Of a stretch of 40,610 nucleotides of DNA, positions 319 through 40,610 are shown piece by piece. Under the pieces are notes generated by a model. The model worked only from the letters and a program-made list of their open reading frames with translations. It ran no database searches and was not told the origin of the DNA. Where the stretch lies: positions 1 through 40,610 of IMG/VR virus record IMGVR_UViG_3300012000_000047. The stretch is one strand, 5' to 3'. Positions within the stretch are counted from its first letter, which is position 1. Each line of letters begins with the position of its first letter. Both the position numbers and the translations under genes were made by a program. The DNA is from a virus.

Positions 319-1007
319 GAACCCTCTATCACGGAACCAGCGAGCGGCACCTGGACTCGATCCTCCGCGAGGGCATCAAGCCTCGCGGGCGGAGGCGAGG
401 CAACTGGAAGTCGTATCCGTCGATTCCGGGCCACGTTTACCTGACGAGCGCCTATGCGGGCTACTTCGCGACCGTCGCCGCCAAGAAGGGCGAGCGGGCT
501 CTGATCGTCGAGGTCTGCCTGGAGGACGACTCTCGGCTCTACCCCGACGAGGACTTCATCGCTCAGGCCCTGGCGGCCGGCAACAACCGGCCGATCGACG
601 ACTACCACGGCGAGGTCTCGGCGACGATCGCCTACTACCGAGATCACGTCCAGGCGAGCCTCGACGGCCTGGGCAACGTCAGCCACGGTGGCGTGGTTCC
701 GCCGGCGGCGATCTCGCGGTACGTCCTGGTCGATACGAAGAAGCAACTCGACGTCATCGTGCTGGCTCTCGACCCAACAATCTCGCTGCTCAACTACAAG
801 TTTTGCGGCGAGCGATACCGGTCGATCAACTCATGGCTGTTCGGCGACCGCAGCGACTTCTCGCTGGGGTTCGCTGGGCAGGACAACGACTCATACATCT
901 CCCTGCTGGAGCGGTCGCAGGAGGGCTACCGAGATCATGTCGCGAAGATGTTCGCGAACCGAGACGGCATCGATGTCGTCAACGTCCGGAAGGCGGTGTC
1001 CGCATGA
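315..1007 (+). CDS. ADP-ribosyltransferase-like protein (Tpt1/PARP-fold)
   Basis: The 230-residue protein opens with LYHGTSERHLDSILREGI (residues 4-21), the first signature of the ADP-ribosyltransferase fold: a catalytic His followed by Gly-Thr and a helix ending in GI. It is followed by HVYLTSAYAGYFA (about 41-53), which matches the second strand carrying the conserved Tyr. The segment PDEDFIAQA (about 77-85) is conserved in phage relatives I remember. The family transfers ADP-ribose from NAD, or removes RNA 2'-phosphate in the Tpt1/KptA branch; which applies here cannot be told. The C-terminal half (about 130-230) is unassigned. It overlaps both neighbours by ATGA. A role in modifying host components early in infection is inference. 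Confidence 0.65.
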   Translation: MRTLYHGTSERHLDSILREGIKPRGRRRGNWKSYPSIPGHVYLTSAYAGYFATVAAKKGERALIVEVCLEDDSRLYPDEDFIAQALAAGNNRPIDDYHGEVSATIAYYRDHVQASLDGLGNVSHGGVVPPAAISRYVLVDTKKQLDVIVLALDPTISLLNYKFCGERYRSINSWLFGDRSDFSLGFAGQDNDSYISLLERSQEGYRDHVAKMFANRDGIDVVNVRKAVSA

Positions 1008-1486
1008 CCGAGACCATCATCGTCAACGGCGAACCGCACCAGATCGAAGCGAAGCGGGCGACGCTCGTCTTCAACGCCGGCGGCGATCGCATCCAGTACC
1101 CAGGCCGCGTGATGATCACGGCCGAGATGTCGCTGAACCGCTACCGGGAGATCGACGAGATCGACCAGTTCGCGGCGGCGATGTTCGAGATGGTCATCCC
1201 AGACTTCGGCCGCCAAGTCTGCAAGGCAGAACTCGACCAGTGCAGCGACGGGCTCCAGCAACTTGCCGGCCTGCTGTCGCTGACGGTCTGGCTGCTGTCG
1301 AGAAAGCACTCGATCGGATGGTCGTACCCGGAGAGCGGGCTCCATCCGAAGTATCAAGCCAACCTCGCCGACGTGATCATCATGCTCACGGACGGCGAGG
1401 CAATCGGGAAGTTCGTCAGGAGAGTTGCCGCAAACACTTGTCGCGTTGACAAGTCTGGGCACGGCAACGCAGACATCGGAGGTTGA
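1004..1486 (+). CDS. Hypothetical early protein (160 aa)
   Basis: The ATG overlaps the preceding TGA. The protein starts with a beta-like stretch (TETIIVNGEPHQIE), has a middle segment rich in alternating charged and hydrophobic residues, and a Leu-rich stretch around residues 88-104 (LQQLAGLLSLTVWLLS) that is too interrupted to call a membrane helix. I recognise no family. The start of its sequence resembles small phage proteins whose N-terminus is a short beta-hairpin. Its 3' end contains a 7-bp inverted repeat that may belong to the next gene's control region. Confidence 0.5.
   Translation: MTETIIVNGEPHQIEAKRATLVFNAGGDRIQYPGRVMITAEMSLNRYREIDEIDQFAAAMFEMVIPDFGRQVCKAELDQCSDGLQQLAGLLSLTVWLLSRKHSIGWSYPESGLHPKYQANLADVIIMLTDGEAIGKFVRRVAANTCRVDKSGHGNADIGG
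1436..1454. promoter_or_regulatory. Inverted repeat ACTTGTC-N5-GACAAGT, possible operator
   Basis: A perfect 7-bp inverted repeat with a 5-nt spacer lies 34 bp upstream of the start of the helix-turn-helix protein at 1488. A TTGACA hexamer (1446-1451) overlaps its right arm. The position suits a binding site for that DNA-binding protein, but this is inference; the repeat also sits inside the end of the preceding coding sequence. Confidence 0.3.
1452..1469 (+). promoter_or_regulatory. Early 18-bp junction motif, copy 1
   Basis: AGTCTGGG-CACGG-CAACG matches the pattern WGTNYGGR-N5-NAAYS seen at seven gene junctions. It lies between the inverted repeat and the start at 1488. This copy deviates from the best copies (6649, 15112) at several positions. 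Confidence 0.3.
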
Positions 1487-1487
1487 C

Positions 1488-2048
1488 ATGGTTCGGACTG
1501 TGTATGTGTCGAGAGTGTTCCGCGTCGACGTCGAGTCGCAGCCGGAGGTCGTGGAGGAACTGCGGCGGCTCGCCGCCAGGGGGTTCGACGTGCTGGGGCC
1601 GATCGACTTGTCGCCCGTGGCGGCGGCGGAGCCGGAGCCTGAGCCTGAGCCGGAGCCGGAGCCGACGCCGAGGCCTCGCGAGGTCATCGACGAGTTGAAG
1701 CGACTCGGTCTGGGAACAGCCGGCGTCGCGGCCCTGGTTGGCGTCAGCGCCGGCGCGATCAGCAACTGGAAGAGCGGTCGTCACAACTGCGACCAGTCGC
1801 GGCTCGGGTGCCTGGAGCGTCTCCTGGATCGGGCGAAGAGCGGGAACCTCGACGGCCTCAAGGCTGAGGCTCGCGGCGCGAGGCGGGCGGTGCGGCTGGC
1901 ATCCGGCAAGCGGCGTCGCATCTATGCCGTCTCGGAGAGCCAGCGGGCGACGATGGTCGATCTGCGGTCGCGAGGCAGCAGTGTCTCGCAGATCGCCGAG
2001 GCGACCGGTCTCTCGGAGTCGTGCGTCAGGCGGAACTCGAAACTCTGA
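1488..2048 (+). CDS. DNA-binding protein with two helix-turn-helix segments and an EP-repeat linker
   Basis: The protein has 186 residues. Residues 1-47 form an alpha/beta-looking N-terminal part. Residues 48-59 are six Glu-Pro pairs encoded by a GAGCCK hexanucleotide repeat, a rigid linker. About 64-112 is a helix-turn-helix of the Cro/C1 type, where helix LGTAGVAALVGVS is followed by AGAISNWKSG. About 150-186 is a second HTH of the resolvase/MarR-like kind (ATMVDLRSRGSSVSQIAEATGLSESCVRRN). Probably an early regulator. The start ATG is preceded by GGAGG (1479-1483). The inverted repeat just upstream may be its own operator. Confidence 0.65.
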   Translation: MVRTVYVSRVFRVDVESQPEVVEELRRLAARGFDVLGPIDLSPVAAAEPEPEPEPEPEPTPRPREVIDELKRLGLGTAGVAALVGVSAGAISNWKSGRHNCDQSRLGCLERLLDRAKSGNLDGLKAEARGARRAVRLASGKRRRIYAVSESQRATMVDLRSRGSSVSQIAEATGLSESCVRRNSKL

Positions 2049-2055
2049 CGCCTTG

Positions 2056-2089
2056 GGCCGCCGGTCGCGAAAGTATGCGGCCGGCGGCC
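2056..2089 (+). terminator. Stable hairpin after the regulator gene
   Basis: GGCCGCCGG (2056-2064) pairs with CCGGCGGCC (2081-2089) over a 16-nt loop, 8 nt downstream of the regulator stop. No T-run follows, so it may be an RNA processing or attenuation structure rather than an intrinsic terminator. Confidence 0.3.
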
Positions 2090-2131
2090 ATAGGTAGGAT
2101 CACAACCACACCATCAAACAGGAGACATGAC

Positions 2132-2635
2132 ATGGGAGCAATCATCACACCGGAGGAGGCCTGCGCCCTGCTGACGGAACTCAACAATATCGCAGAGAGC
2201 GGCCTGCCGACGGCGAGCGAGTTTCGGAGGCATCTGGCGTCGGCCATCGTGAAACTCACGACGGCTCAGGACGGTATGCCGATCATCTACGAGCATCGCG
2301 GCGAGTGGTGGATTTGCATCAACGGCATGACGAAGCACGGCCCGTTCGAGAGCCGCAACCGCGCGGAGTTCTTCTGGGGAGTCGCCTGTCGGGACGACGA
2401 CGCGCAGTACGAGGTAGACTTCGCACACATGGTGCTGTCCCTCACGCCCAACGGCGAGGCCTGGACGGACTCAAGGTCTGGAATGCGGTTTCGGCTCGAC
2501 AAGCAAGCGAAGTCCATGACGATCGAAGACGACTCGATCGTCGACGGCGAGAGGCTCGCCGTGCTGCGGGATCGGTTCTGGATCGTGGGATATTCGATCG
2601 CCAGCGAAGAGGAGGTGAGCAGTGGAAAACTATGA
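2132..2635 (+). CDS. Hypothetical protein (167 aa)
   Basis: The start is supported by AGGAGA at 2120-2125. The N-terminal part (PEEACALLTELNNIAESGLPTAS) looks helical. The middle contains EWWICINGMTKHGPFESRNRAEFFW, an aromatic-rich beta segment, and the C-terminus has DRFWIVGYSIAS. It has no family I can name. It shares a 14-nt overlap with the next gene, so the pair is probably one transcription unit. Confidence 0.5.
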   Translation: MGAIITPEEACALLTELNNIAESGLPTASEFRRHLASAIVKLTTAQDGMPIIYEHRGEWWICINGMTKHGPFESRNRAEFFWGVACRDDDAQYEVDFAHMVLSLTPNGEAWTDSRSGMRFRLDKQAKSMTIEDDSIVDGERLAVLRDRFWIVGYSIASEEEVSSGKL

Positions 2636-2876
2636 GTGTCGCAGGAAGGTCTATCTGCCGTACGCGATCGCTGAGAAGCACCTGTTCGGCCGAGACGACT
2701 GCGGAAAGTGGCTGCCATACATGAGCGGCCGACGGGCGATCTGCGTCGCGACGAAGGCCGAGGCGGCGAGGTCGTTTGCCGTCCTGCTCGATTCAGGAGA
2801 CCCGGAGGCCACCGAGGCGGCGAGAGAGTCGCAGGATCGATTGCGTGAGTTTGCCGGCGATTGGCCGACCTCGTAA
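2622..2876 (+). CDS. Small hypothetical protein (84 aa), GTG start
   Basis: Starts with GTG preceded by GAGGAG at 2609-2614 inside the upstream gene. The product is MENYECRRKVYLPYAIAEKH... with an RxAICVATKAEAARSFAVLL segment at about residues 36-55 and an acidic helical tail. It is mixed alpha/beta and soluble. I recognise no family. The overlap with the upstream gene suggests coupled translation. Confidence 0.45.
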   Translation: MENYECRRKVYLPYAIAEKHLFGRDDCGKWLPYMSGRRAICVATKAEAARSFAVLLDSGDPEATEAARESQDRLREFAGDWPTS

Positions 2877-2922
2877 GAATACTCCGGTCAGTCATCCATC
2901 ATCCATCAACGGAGAGCCAAGC

Positions 2923-3192
2923 ATGAAGAAGAAAGCAGTCACCACAGAGGAAAAGGTCATAGTCATCCCCAAGAACGTGAACCCGATCCCATCCAGGGTC
3001 GCGGCGAGCATCCTGCAATGCTCGATGGGCCACGTCCGCTGGCTGCGGAGAAACGGACGGCTCAAGAGTTGGAAACTCTCGGGGCGGTATACGATGCTCG
3101 ACCGCAAGGAGGTCGAGGCCCTGGCGAAGGCGAAGGCCAAGCAGGAGACAAGGCTCGGGGCTCCCTCCAAGGGGTTCCAGCCGGATACCTGA
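2923..3192 (+). CDS. Excisionase/MerR-type winged-helix DNA-binding protein
   Basis: Residues about 24-68 read IPSRVAASILQCSMGHVRWL, then RRNGRLKSWKLSGRYTMLDRKEVEALA. This is the layout of the helix-turn-helix 17 / excisionase family: helix-turn-helix, a wing with a basic NGRLKSWKLSGRY hairpin and a final helix starting with D/EVEA. Length (89 aa) is typical. The Lys-rich N-terminal arm (MKKKAVTTEEK) is extra. It may direct an integrase or act as a small regulator; no integrase is present in the window. Weak ribosome site GGAGAG (2911-2916). Confidence 0.65.
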   Translation: MKKKAVTTEEKVIVIPKNVNPIPSRVAASILQCSMGHVRWLRRNGRLKSWKLSGRYTMLDRKEVEALAKAKAKQETRLGAPSKGFQPDT

Positions 3193-10366: not shown

Positions 10367-10397
10367 CCCCCTCGCCGAGACTTGCTCGGCGAGGGGG
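10367..10397 (+). terminator. Rho-independent terminator
   Basis: A 13-bp perfect GC-rich stem, CCCCCTCGCCGAG (10367-10379) with CTCGGCGAGGGGG (10385-10397), has a 5-nt loop and is followed by CATCTTTCT. It lies in the 104-bp gap after the ssDNA-binding-like gene and separates the exonuclease block from the primase-polymerase. Confidence 0.7.
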
Positions 10398-15140: not shown

Positions 15141-15185
15141 CGCCACGGAAGGTTCCGTGGCGGGCTCCACGGATCGGAGCCCGCC
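15141..15185 (+). repeat. Two overlapping palindromes
   Basis: CGCCACGGAA-GG-TTCCGTGGCG (15141-15162, 10-bp arms) overlaps GGCGGGCTCC-N7-GGAGCCCGCC (15159-15185, 10-bp arms). Only one of the two hairpins can form fully at a time. No T-run follows, so this is an attenuator-like or protein-binding element rather than a plain terminator. The remaining gap to 15330 shows no credible gene. Confidence 0.5.
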
Positions 15186-15330
15186 ACGGTGATTCCGGGA
15201 GGAATGGAGTCCCCGATCTATGTGGCCGTGGTCATCTCGCACGGTCGCCTCTGAACTCCGCCGGCTGGCGATGCGGATGCGTCGGCCTCACGCGGCTCGT
15301 CTACGTCTCATTCGCAGGGAGATTGCCAGC

Positions 15331-24475: not shown

Positions 24476-25399
24476 ATGGCATCGCCGTGGAGGCCCGAGG
24501 GTTGGACACCAAACCCGGCCGAGACCGAGAAGTTCGTCAGCGGGCTCAAGTACCCGACGATCCGCGAGGGGGGGCCGAAACTCAAGGTGCAGGACGACAA
24601 AGACGTCTTCCTGTACCAGTACCTCCTCAAGGTCTGCCCCAAGTATCGCCGTGTCGCCCAGGCGATCGGGTCGTGCGTCGGCCACGCGTACGCTGGATGC
24701 GCCGACCTCCTAGCCGCGACGGAAATCGTCGTCCACGGCGAGGCCGAAGACTGGCACGGCCGAACGCTGGAGGCTTCGATTTATGCTTTTAGCAGGGTCG
24801 AAGCCAGGGGCAAGCGTCGAGCAGGCACGTCCGACGGATCATACGGAGCCGCCGCGTGTAAGGCGGTGATGAACTGGGGCCTGCTCCACTATGACGTGGA
24901 CTACAAAGGCACGGTCTTCGCCGAATACTCAGGCCTCCGAGAGAAGCAGTGGGGTGACACGGGAGTTCCGGACGAACTGGAGCCGTTCGCCAAGAAGCGT
25001 CGCATCAAGGAGACGACGCTCATTCGCAACTTTGACGACTACTGCCGCGCAGTGGGGGCTGGGTATCCCGTGGCCGTGTGCAGCAACGTGGGCTTCACGT
25101 TCGCCAGAGACAGCGAGGGCTTCTGTCGTCCCAAGGGGTCTTGGAGCCATGCGCTTGCCGCGATCTCGAAGAGGCACGGCAAGCGGCCCGGCGCGCTGAT
25201 CTGGAACTCTTGGGGCAACTCTTCCAACTCTGGGCCTCACTATCCAGACGATATGCCCGTGCCGTTCCGGGGCTCCACGTTCTGGATTGATGCGGAGGTG
25301 TTTGATCGTATGGCCCGGCAGGGCGATACCTTCGCGATGTCGAACTACGACGGCTTTCCGCCTCGCAAACTTCCCGACTGGACTGGGGGCGTGTTGTGA
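24476..25399 (+). CDS. Papain-like (C1A) cysteine peptidase
   Basis: The catalytic residues are visible: Cys67 in QAIGSCVGHA, with the oxyanion Gln six residues before it, His225 in WSHALA and Asn244 in WNSWGNS. The whole is a single C1A domain of 307 residues without an obvious pro-region or signal peptide. Phage C1A-like peptidases are found near tail and lysis genes; here it lies between an exported protein and a lipoprotein. Substrate unknown; cleavage of peptide cross-bridges or of a virion protein are possibilities. It overlaps the next gene by 4 nt. Confidence 0.8.
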   Translation: MASPWRPEGWTPNPAETEKFVSGLKYPTIREGGPKLKVQDDKDVFLYQYLLKVCPKYRRVAQAIGSCVGHAYAGCADLLAATEIVVHGEAEDWHGRTLEASIYAFSRVEARGKRRAGTSDGSYGAAACKAVMNWGLLHYDVDYKGTVFAEYSGLREKQWGDTGVPDELEPFAKKRRIKETTLIRNFDDYCRAVGAGYPVAVCSNVGFTFARDSEGFCRPKGSWSHALAAISKRHGKRPGALIWNSWGNSSNSGPHYPDDMPVPFRGSTFWIDAEVFDRMARQGDTFAMSNYDGFPPRKLPDWTGGVL

Positions 25400-38326: not shown

Positions 38327-38632
38327 ATGCCCCGCCGAATGGAGTTCTTCTCGCCGAAGCGAGCCCGGATGCGGGAGGCCCGGCCGAACGCGTACCAGCG
38401 AGGGTATGGCGGCAAGGCCTGGGCCGAGGTGCGGAAGCGAGTCCTCGTCAGGGACAACTTCCAGTGCCGCCACTGCGGTCGGGTGTGCGGCGGCAAGGGC
38501 GAGGCCCACGTCGACCACATCGTTCCGAAGCGTCTCCGCGACAGCGACGACGAGGCCGGGCTCCAGGTGCTGTGTGCGAAGTGCCACGCCCGGAAGACCA
38601 GGGACGAGTTAGAGGGCTCTAGCGAGCCCTGA
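38327..38632 (+). CDS. HNH endonuclease (packaging-associated)
   Basis: Two Cys pairs surround the catalytic loop: CRHCGRVCGG (about 46-55), AHVDHIVPK (the His-x-Asp-His core) and VLCAKCHARKT (Cys-x-x-Cys with the final His). The 101-residue length and the position before the terminase genes match HNH proteins of HK97-like phages that assist TerL cleavage. It could alternatively be a free homing enzyme; this alternative matters for the TerL interruption (see findings). Its ATG follows the Ig-like gene by two bases. Confidence 0.85.
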   Translation: MPRRMEFFSPKRARMREARPNAYQRGYGGKAWAEVRKRVLVRDNFQCRHCGRVCGGKGEAHVDHIVPKRLRDSDDEAGLQVLCAKCHARKTRDELEGSSEP

Positions 38633-38990
38633 GAAGCCCGATCGCGTCGCGGTGGTGTCCCGAGACGCCTAAACTCGTCTCGCCGCAAATGCGGGGCTGA
38701 GGAACGCGGGTTGGTCTGGGGCCTATACCGCGAATGCTTTCCTATAAGGCAACAATTTCCAAGCCACTGTATTCGCCGGTATAGGTGGTATACCCCCAAA
38801 TCCGCAATGGTTTGACCTATAAAAATAGGGATTTTTTCTCCTTATATCTATTCCGCTCGAAGTGGGATAGGGGCGGCATAGGTTGCATAACCCAGGGCGA
38901 CGATTTTGCTCGAATCCATAGGGTTTGAGCAGCCTCGCGAGCAGGAAAAAATCAGGCGACAAGCGAGGCGACCCTGGGTAGGCTCGCCTC
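38633..38990. other. Gene-free region with hairpins and the second 80-bp element
   Basis: Small hairpins CGAGACG-N8-CGTCTCG (38661-38682) and CCGCA-AA-TGCGG lie at the start. Then comes the 80-bp repeat with GGTATAG-like words (CCTATACC, CGGTATAGG, TGGTATACC, GGGATAGG, GGCATAGG, TGCATAAC). GAGGCGA/TCGCCTC pairs just before the next ATG. It parallels 12053-12211. No credible gene on either strand; antisense frames encode only repeat peptides. Confidence 0.5.
38777..38855 (+). repeat. 80-bp element, copy 2
   Basis: Matches 12084-12163 with three differences. It lies about 140 bp upstream of the MT-A70 gene, close to the packaging genes. It starts CGGTATAGGTGGTATACC and ends CTCCTTATATCTATTCCG. 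Confidence 0.85.
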
Positions 38991-39566
38991 ATGCTCTCTG
39001 ATCCAGGGGCTCTGCCCTCAGGCCCATTCGACGTCGTGCTGCTCGACCCACCCTGGTCGCACTATGGCGCTCAGGACAAGTGGGGCGCAGCAGCCAAGTT
39101 CTACCCAACCATGAGCGACGAGGCCCTGGCATCCATGCCAGTGGGTGGCCTGCTCAAGAAGTCGAGCGTTGTCTTCTGCTGGGCGACTTGCCCAAGGCTG
39201 AACTTCGCCATCGACCTCCTGGAGAAGTGGGGCCTGACCTACAGGGGCGTGGCGTTTGTCTGGGTCAAGACAGCCAAGTCTACAGGTCGCCCCATAGGCG
39301 CAAGAGGCGTGAGGCCAAGCATCATCAAGCCCACCACAGAGTTGGTGATCGCAGGCTCGCTGACATCGAAAGGCAGGCCCATGCCACTCGCCAGCGAGGC
39401 TGTGGCTCAGGTTGTCTTGGCCCCAGTTGGCGCTCACAGCGAGAAGCCAGTCGAAGTCATGGAGCGAATCGAGTTGCTCTACCCAGAAGCAAGTCGCCTG
39501 GAGTTGTTCGCGAGGAAGACTCGCCCAGGCTGGGACTCCTGGGGAAACGAAGTGCAGGCTGCCTGA
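38991..39566 (+). CDS. MT-A70-family adenine methyltransferase
   Basis: The catalytic DPPW (residues 19-22, LLDPPWSHYG) is preceded by a FDVV strand. Further family blocks are FYPTMSDEALASMPVGGLL, VFCWATCPRLNFAIDLLEKWGL, YRGVAFVWVKT and the C-terminal EPY/SEKPVEVMERIELLYPEASRLELFARK. At 191 residues it has the usual phage length. It methylates N6 of adenine, probably in phage DNA, and may mask host restriction or regulate packaging. It lies between the 80-bp element and the terminase genes, so it may have moved in with that element. Confidence 0.85.
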   Translation: MLSDPGALPSGPFDVVLLDPPWSHYGAQDKWGAAAKFYPTMSDEALASMPVGGLLKKSSVVFCWATCPRLNFAIDLLEKWGLTYRGVAFVWVKTAKSTGRPIGARGVRPSIIKPTTELVIAGSLTSKGRPMPLASEAVAQVVLAPVGAHSEKPVEVMERIELLYPEASRLELFARKTRPGWDSWGNEVQAA

Positions 39567-39727: not shown

Positions 39728-40192
39728 ATGGGACGCACGCCGACTCCCACAAGTCTCAAGGTAATTCGCGGCAACCCAGGCCAGCGGACTCTCAACTCGT
39801 CCGAGCCGAAGCCTCCGCCGGCTGACCTGACGCCGCCAGACTGCCTCGACGAGATCGGCATCAGGGTCTGGAACGAGATGGCCCCGCTCCTGACGAGCAT
39901 GGGCGTGTTCACCCAGGCCGACCGGATGCTGCTCACCCGGTACTGTCTGCTCAACGAGCAGTTCTCGCACGTCGTCAAGCACGTCCGCGAGAACGGCATG
40001 ACCCAGTTGACTCAGACTGGGTACTCGCAACTCACGGCGGAGGGGTCGTTGTTCAAGAGTCTGCCGTCGGAACTCCTGCGGATCGAGCAGCAGTTCGGAA
40101 TGACGCCGGCAGCCCGCTCCACCCTCAAGGTCTCCCATGCCGCTGCCAACGAAAACCCTCTTGCCTCGTTTATCTCGAAGCGAAGCGGTTGA
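39728..40192 (+). CDS. terS: Terminase small subunit (P27 / Terminase_4 family)
   Basis: It begins GRTPTPTSLKVIRGNPGQRTLN, the signature opening of the P27 family, followed by PPDCLDEIGIRVWNEMAPLLTSMGV, TQADRMLLTRYCLLNEQF and LLRIEQQFGMTPAARSTLKV. It has 154 residues. It recognises the packaging site and loads the large subunit. The gene overlaps the TerL start by 56 nt, so the two are translated together. Confidence 0.9.
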   Translation: MGRTPTPTSLKVIRGNPGQRTLNSSEPKPPPADLTPPDCLDEIGIRVWNEMAPLLTSMGVFTQADRMLLTRYCLLNEQFSHVVKHVRENGMTQLTQTGYSQLTAEGSLFKSLPSELLRIEQQFGMTPAARSTLKVSHAAANENPLASFISKRSG

Positions 40193-40610
40193 GCAAGGGC
40201 TCGCCTACTACTTCGACGCCGACAAGGCCCAGCACGCGGTCGACTTCTTCGAGCAGTTCCTCGTCCACTCGAAGGGCAAGTTCGCCGGCCAGCCCTTCAC
40301 GCTCCTTGACTGGCAGCGTCACGAAGTGATCGAGGAGATATTCGGCTGGATGCGGGTCGACACCGACACCCGGAAGTACCGGGTCGGGTTCATCGAGGTG
40401 CCGAAAAAAAATGGCGCCTTGGCCCCCGCAGCCTAGCGTTGCGGGGGCCAAGGTTCCCCTGGTAAGTCCACACTCCTGTCCGGCATCGGCCTCTATATGC
40501 TCGTCGCTGACGGCGAGCCGGCCGCTGAGTGCTTCGGCTGCGCGACGTCTCGCGAACAGGCGAGCATCGTCTACAAGCAGATGAAGGAACTCGTCCAGGC
40601 GAGCCCCCAC
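40137..40610 (+). CDS. terL: Terminase large subunit, interrupted in Walker A (3' end beyond the window)
   Basis: HK97/Terminase_1-type ATPase. Residues 1-93 give FFEQFLVHSKGKFAGQPFTLLDWQRHEVIEEIFGW and RKYRVGFIEVPKKNG, quoted by landmarks: KGKFAGQPF, LLDWQ and VPKKNG. The frame then meets ALAPAA and TAG (40434-40436). From 40464 the same frame resumes as KSTLLSGIGLYMLVADGEP and ATSREQASIVYKQM, the normal continuation of this family. Joining GGC (40413-40415) to AAG (40464) gives PKKNGKST, the Walker A motif, with nothing missing. The 48-nt insert is described separately. It could be a pseudogene or assembly error, but both halves are otherwise intact. Confidence 0.85.
40413..40463 (+). other. 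Putative translational bypass (byp-like) element in terL
   Basis: Take-off candidate codon GGC (40413-40415, Gly93), landing candidate GGT (40461-40463); the same tRNA-Gly (anticodon GCC) can read both. Between them CCTTGGCCCCCGCA (40417-40430) pairs perfectly with TGCGGGGGCCAAGG (40440-40453), 14 bp, extendable by G.U at the base and by G.U plus C-G at the tip to leave the 5-nt loop CTAGC. The stop TAG (40434-40436) overlaps that loop. Codon-to-codon distance is 48 nt, compared with the 50-nt bypass of T4 gene 60. Readthrough would instead insert about 16 residues into Walker A. Confidence 0.55.

Follow-up and report, generated by a model that had tools for sequence, protein, structure and literature searches.

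How can a phage make its DNA-packaging ATPase from a gene whose Walker A motif is interrupted by a hairpin that carries a stop codon? The question is raised by the end of a 40.6-kb IMG/VR virus record (40,610 nucleotides, the whole of which was analyzed and is called the window here), in which the motif of the large terminase gene, terL, is split as PKKNG|KST by a TAG-bearing hairpin at 40416-40463, about 150 nt short of the contig end. The answer that we favor, and that the sequences make likely, is that the insert is a mobile translational bypass element resembling that of T4 gene 60, which ribosomes would hop over. To our knowledge, ribosome bypass in phages was previously established only for T4 gene 60, with a large set known otherwise only in yeast mitochondria, and our literature searches found no earlier description of this terL element.

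The interrupted terL frame

On the plus strand of the window, terL starts at 40137, overlapping the small terminase subunit gene terS (39728-40192, plus strand; PF05119 Terminase_4, E 1e-16), and direct reading finds its frame open up to VPKKNG. This pre-gap part (40137-40415), which runs from the N-terminus to the first half of the Walker A motif (EVPKKNG), has 38 IMG/VR relatives with 38-99% identity. It ends with the A-rich stretch AAA AAA AAT (Lys-Lys-Asn, 40404-40412) and the Gly codon GGC (40413-40415), the putative take-off codon. The 5′ arm of the hairpin (40416-40432) follows directly, and after it come a loop (40433-40437) with the in-frame TAG (40434-40436), the 3′ arm (40438-40454), a spacer whose length varies among family members (40455-40460), and the putative landing codon GGT (40461-40463), also a Gly codon and read by the same tRNA-Gly(GCC) as GGC. 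The frame resumes at 40464 with AAG TCC ACA, or Lys-Ser-Thr, and the post-gap part (KSTLLSG, 40464-40610) is cut off by the contig end. When the 48 nt are taken out, PKKNG-KSTLLSGIGLYML is restored. The preliminary description of this locus had given the frame, the TAG, the 48-nt gap with its GGC and GGT borders, and the restored consensus, and all of these are correct. It had also reported a perfect 14-bp inverted repeat with the stop at its loop; the arms (40417-40430 and 40440-40453) are indeed perfectly complementary, and the RNA stem is longer, reaching 17 pairs (40416-40432 with 40438-40454) with a minimum free energy of -40 kcal/mol. Its statements that terS is intact and that TAG is an ordinary stop elsewhere in the window (5430, 5745, 9493, and 33495, the last on the minus strand) stand as well, the former through the PF05119 match. 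A perfect 14-bp inverted repeat alone is not rare in the window, where the repeat at 15155-15189 is also perfect. The insert nevertheless goes beyond chance because 53 further contigs, drawn from many metagenomes, have the same type of insert in the same place.

A family of inserts at one site

The relatives of the window's terL were gathered with the 93 residues before the gap as the query. Among the 38 IMG/VR relatives found in this way, at least 10 are interrupted at exactly this position by a similar insert, others have an empty site, and one has an intein. Scans of terL alignments together with DNA patterns raised the number of insert-bearing IMG/VR terL contigs to 53 besides the window, and the elements tabulated from them comprise 38 distinct sequence versions. 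A pattern made of the two flanks alone, 36-56 nt apart and with no hairpin required, hit 44 contigs, all of them hairpin inserts that were already known. Matches to the hairpin all lie in terL at the Walker A site with one exception, a single copy outside terL (L178) that was judged to be a chance match. The comparison with terL homologues that the preliminary description had proposed thus turned up both filled and empty sites, and its reading of the insert as a bypass element, although supported, has to be widened from a single case to a mobile family. Searches of cultured phage records and of 392 Planctomycetota genomes found no copy of the element. In GTDB genomes, where the loci of 20 of the terL matches were checked, the nearest terL relatives (46%) lie in Phycisphaerales MAGs. 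One such MAG (G017, loci L121 and L122) holds three terL relatives, two full and one partial, a sign that this group of terL genes extends to phages or prophages of planctomycetes. In another contig (3300014050_000148), the last residues of TerL become RGDSSGAGPPGGPHHH, probably through an assembly error at the contig end.

With the take-off codon left out and the landing codon counted in, the gap measures 46 nt in 5 versions, 47 in 13, 48 in 7, 49 in 3, 50 in 6, and 51 in 4, so that all three frame classes are represented and the gap is not a multiple of three in 27 of 38 versions. Every one of the 11 in-frame gaps contains a 0-frame stop, compared with 9 of the 27 others (p 2e-4, a value that includes related versions and carries no correction for the tree); the gaps of the remaining 18 of the 38 lack a 0-frame stop. 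Where stops are present, they are TAG, TGA, or TAA and lie in or near the loop. A stop in every gap that is a multiple of three reads as a signature of the translation level and fits a need to keep failed hops from producing a long protein with added residues. In the downstream frame, a stop lies inside the gap in 21 of the versions and the gap is open in 17, and readthrough or one early frameshift is therefore not a general solution. The preliminary description had argued that the absence of a frame change speaks against simple decay. That argument serves for the 48-nt gap of the window and fails for the family at large, in which the gaps that are not multiples of three are stronger evidence against decay than frame neutrality is.

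A hairpin that acts in the mRNA

Alignment of the 38 versions, with shuffled and slid alignments as controls, reveals a stem of 17 bp that begins directly after the take-off codon and in which 97.7% of cells are paired. Two-sided changes occur at 6 stem pairs, and the base of the stem covaries, with pairs such as CCC/GGG, GTC/GAC, and CTC/GAG. The covariation score of 0.278 exceeds the 0.172 of shuffled alignments (none of 500 as high) and the scores of slid ones, which reach 0.139 at most. Wobble pairs are informative about the strand, with G.U in 78 cells at 9 pair positions and A.C in only 3 cells. Because G.U is kept and A.C is rare, the hairpin acts in the sense-strand mRNA rather than as a DNA palindrome.

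Additional structure lies upstream of the site. The 60 nt on its 5′ side are more structured than in empty relatives, with group mean z values of -1.1 and -1.2 against -0.2 and -0.3 (synonymous-codon controls; p about 0.02 per group before any correction for the tree). The versions that take off from an Asn codon, described below, have a striking stem-loop that ends a few nucleotides before take-off (z -2.6 to -3.6); outside this sub-type the 5′ stem-loop is weak on average and absent in many members. Its likeness to the 5′ stem-loop of T4 gene 60 is suggestive only. Two genes with empty sites (L210 and L218) have a strong stem-loop just before the site, like the filled genes of the Asn sub-type, which might be the scar of a lost element or a matter of chance. 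Downstream, structure does not rise above control (mean z -0.4), and a Shine-Dalgarno-like motif before the landing codon can be seen by eye in some members without being consistent. The upstream peptide is conserved TerL sequence in both filled and empty genes.

Matched codons at the two edges of the gap

The pairs of take-off and landing codons among the 38 versions, which include related versions and are not independent counts, are GGC-GGC (22), GGC-GGA (5), AAT-AAC (4), GGT-GGC (2), and single cases of GGC-GGT, GGT-GGA, GGG-GGT, GGC-TGC, and AAT-ATC. The Gly types pair Gly with Gly in 32 of 33 versions, taking off from GGC, GGT, or GGG and landing on GGC, GGT, GGA, or once TGC. In the Asn sub-type (5 versions), AAT is the codon directly before the hairpin, which starts one codon earlier than in the Gly types, and the landing codon is AAC in four versions and ATC in one (L080). 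Where it is AAC, that codon is constant and the third base of the Gly codon after it varies among C, A, G, and T. The repeated codon therefore tracks the position of the hairpin, as re-pairing of a peptidyl-tRNA predicts and RNA splicing does not. The first two bases of take-off and landing codon match in 36 of 38 versions, the exceptions being GGC-TGC and AAT-ATC. Landing on GGA (6 versions), TGC (L049/L166), or ATC (L080) leaves pairing with the take-off tRNA at two of three positions, which counts against bypass; L049/L166 and L080 are natural test cases for such pairing. The matched codons could have begun as a 3-nt target-site duplication. Context counts also set filled sites apart from empty ones, with AAT in or just before the take-off position in 35 of 38 filled versions and 9 of 71 empty sites, and part of this A-rich/AAT excess may be co-inherited flank.

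A terL gene in use

Residues placed between the Gly and the Lys of a Walker A motif would destroy the P-loop, and the gap must therefore be removed at some level if the gene is to function. That it does function follows from strong purifying selection after the gap together with a single terL per contig. Downstream frames are full-length in relatives, and the post-gap part of one of them (L041) has both the PF03354 ATPase and the PF20441 nuclease of a full TerL. After the gap, dN/dS in pairs of insert-bearing genes is 0.01-0.23, with dS reaching 1.8, and empty relatives have similar values. The preliminary description had allowed for a second, intact terL, and none turned up: each of 14 insert-bearing contigs has one terL match, and three of these contigs are 94-97 kb long.

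Mobility and possibly competing inteins

The distribution of the element is patchy and horizontal. On a tree of 82 TerL proteins, the presence of the hairpin requires 16 changes, at least 11 of them forced by well-supported branches, and near-identical hairpins occur in terL genes that are 43% identical (L096 and L004). The divergence between a filled gene and its nearest empty relative is greatest within the 60-120 nt that surround the site, as in the pair L080/L085, whose values along the gene are 100, 100, 92, 97, 90, 73, and 77 before the site and 70, 95, and 93 after it. Such short divergent flanking tracts look co-conversion-like, as would be left by homing. Empty, hairpin, and intein alleles are interleaved in the same clades (L084/L085, L080, and L082/L083/L089, respectively). 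The inteins (L014 at 519-3158, L069, L082, L083, L089, and L095) are inserted at GK|S, one codon beyond the hairpin site, and carry LAGLIDADG_3 domains; they look like class 2/3-type inteins that compete for the same Walker A site. They seem to begin with Asp (L014) or Ala (L089, L095) rather than with Cys or Ser, and they end in THN|S. The hairpin insert itself was rejected as an intein on account of its 46-51 nt, its stops, and its lengths that are not multiples of three.

Many members, the window included, have an HNH gene close to terS; in the window, the domain (38465-38602, plus strand; PF01844, 40.8 bits) is upstream of terS. That this gene is the agent of mobility is conjecture, as an HNH gene near terS is the usual layout of such packaging modules. 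The window has an MT-A70 adenine methyltransferase between the HNH domain gene and terS, and the pair (38465-39566) ends just upstream of the latter.

Bypass and its alternatives

Frame-independence, codon matching, the RNA hairpin, and purifying selection together make translational bypass, as the preliminary description had proposed, the probable explanation. Ribosomes would translate terL up to the take-off codon (GGC, or AAT in the sub-type), where the hairpin directly after it would stall them and dislodge the peptidyl-tRNA, helped by the A-rich approach and perhaps by the 5′ stem-loop. The hairpin would hold the 46-51 nt gap outside the decoding path while the peptidyl-tRNA, a host one, re-pairs with the matching codon just beyond it (GGN, or AAC in the sub-type). 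Decoding would then restart at the Lys-Ser-Thr of the Walker A motif to give an uninterrupted ATPase, whereas ribosomes that failed to hop would terminate within the gap or continue in the wrong frame. The element would spread horizontally among phages into its one conserved site by a homing-like conversion that takes short flanking tracts along. On balance, we also favor a wider proposal, in which a hairpin of 46-51 nt with no endonuclease of its own homes among unrelated phages into the terL Walker A site, is tolerated because ordinary bacterial ribosomes hop over it, and is a competitor of, or a protection against, the LAGLIDADG inteins that target this site.

The main rival is removal from the RNA, by a protein enzyme or an unknown type of tiny intron that would recognize the hairpin, cut at AAY^ and ^GGN, and ligate the mRNA. 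Such a rule gives the right protein for nearly all versions and agrees with a hairpin that is active in sense RNA, and a cut within the Gly codon (AATG^...^GN) would also suit L049 and L080. Splicing nonetheless gives no reason for the extra GGN at the start of the gap in Gly types or the extra AAC at its end in AAT types, and the stop in every gap that is a multiple of three points to translation instead. The distance from the hairpin to the 3′ site is variable, no RtcB or RNA_ligase gene occurs in 10 insert-bearing records (a host could supply one), and Rfam has no match at E<=1 for an insert that is too short for group I or II introns. We therefore consider splicing improbable, while an unknown RNA-processing activity, which counts against bypass, keeps some probability on the sequences alone. 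Archaeal-type splicing was dropped, since there is no constant pairing around both boundaries and the variable spacer allows no common bulge-helix-bulge.

The other alternatives are each far less probable than splicing. The terL genes might be inactive, as pseudogenes or in defective phages, given that the frame is broken as written and that the window is itself a contig fragment; the chance of this is slim when the downstream part is under strong purifying selection, the element is conserved with compensatory changes, contigs of up to 97 kb have no second terL, and the insert recurs independently in many lineages. A similarly slim chance attaches to removal from the DNA, by slippage or by a recombinase that excises the palindrome from some genomes so that empty copies express terL. 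Precise deletion is known to act on palindromes flanked by 3-nt repeats, and close relatives do have empty alleles, but the sense-only wobbles (78 G.U against 3 A.C cells) bespeak selection on mRNA structure, and rare precise excision would not account for stable retention over dS near 1. Slightly less probable again is a frameshift on the A8 tract, or stop readthrough, that would add about 16 residues to TerL. The sequence A AAA AAA with a hairpin after it resembles a -1 site, and the 17 versions open in the downstream frame would permit it; the 21 closed ones would not, AAT types have AAGAAAAAT or AAGAAGAAT in place of A8, and 16 residues at this point of the P-loop are incompatible with what is generally known of Walker A motifs. 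An assembly or sequencing artifact, which the position of the insert 150 nt from a contig end might suggest, has next to no probability and is refuted by the 53 other contigs with different versions, most of which have the whole gene assembled on both sides.

Comparison with known bypass systems

In T4 gene 60, matched GGA codons border a 50-nt gap, a stop follows take-off, stem-loops lie both at the take-off site and 5′ of it, and the nascent peptide supplies a further signal (PMC11194080; PMC5009743). Sliding there is processive to 56 nt (PMC11194080), and the gap has been linked to mobile DNA as possibly a degenerate intron that protects against a homing endonuclease (PMC5009743). The terL element shares with it a nearly equal gap length, Gly take-off and landing, a hairpin at take-off, and an essential phage gene as the place of interruption; a stop in the gap is shared by some members, and a possible counterpart of the 5′ stem-loop is present in some. 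The features of T4-type bypass found here are frames made discontinuous by a gap that either is not a multiple of three or bears a stop, and an mRNA hairpin at take-off. A stop immediately 3′ of take-off is absent from the terL family, where the stop is in or near the loop or missing, and this counts against bypass; in T4 that stop is a stimulator and not part of the definition. The terL element further differs in its site, the Walker A motif of terL instead of a topoisomerase subunit, in a hairpin of 17 or more bp that lies wholly within the gap, and in having an Asn/Asn sub-type, dozens of natural versions, and recurrent horizontal gain. The byp elements of Magnusiomyces capitatus mitochondria, with 81 copies in many mitochondrial genes, tolerate two-of-three pairing at landing (PMC5009743). 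They resemble the terL element as short, mobile, frame-independent hairpin inserts that are spread over a lineage, two-of-three landing pairing included, whereas the terL element keeps to a single position in a single phage gene, and its phages presumably rely on ordinary bacterial ribosomes. In Streptomyces phage Hau3, according to the citing description in PMC5009743, bypass was suggested for the terminase gene and attributed to a UUA codon; by that description, the two cases share a phage terminase gene with suggested bypass, and that of Hau3 is not ascribed to an inserted hairpin. The terL inteins are the nearest counterparts in place, being within one codon of the same site in the same phage lineages, mobile, and neutral after removal, but they are removed as protein and span hundreds of residues with LAGLIDADG domains, whereas the hairpin element is a non-coding gap of 46-51 nt.

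If the wider proposal is right, this would be the first natural family of phage bypass elements that has dozens of members, and also the first that uses two tRNA specificities (Gly and Asn). With at least 38 natural versions at one site that vary in gap length, loop, stop, spacer, and tRNA type, it would offer a ready-made mutant series on the requirements of ribosome hopping. It also suggests bypass as a general route by which tiny mobile elements come to be tolerated in essential genes, and such genes are likely misannotated as broken in phage genomes.

Other features of the window

Two perfect inverted repeats of 13-14 bp with short loops, at 10367-10397 and at 15155-15189, are possibly terminators near gene ends. 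The minus strand carries a single predicted tRNA, a tRNA-Val (TAC) of 94 nt at 24802-24895.
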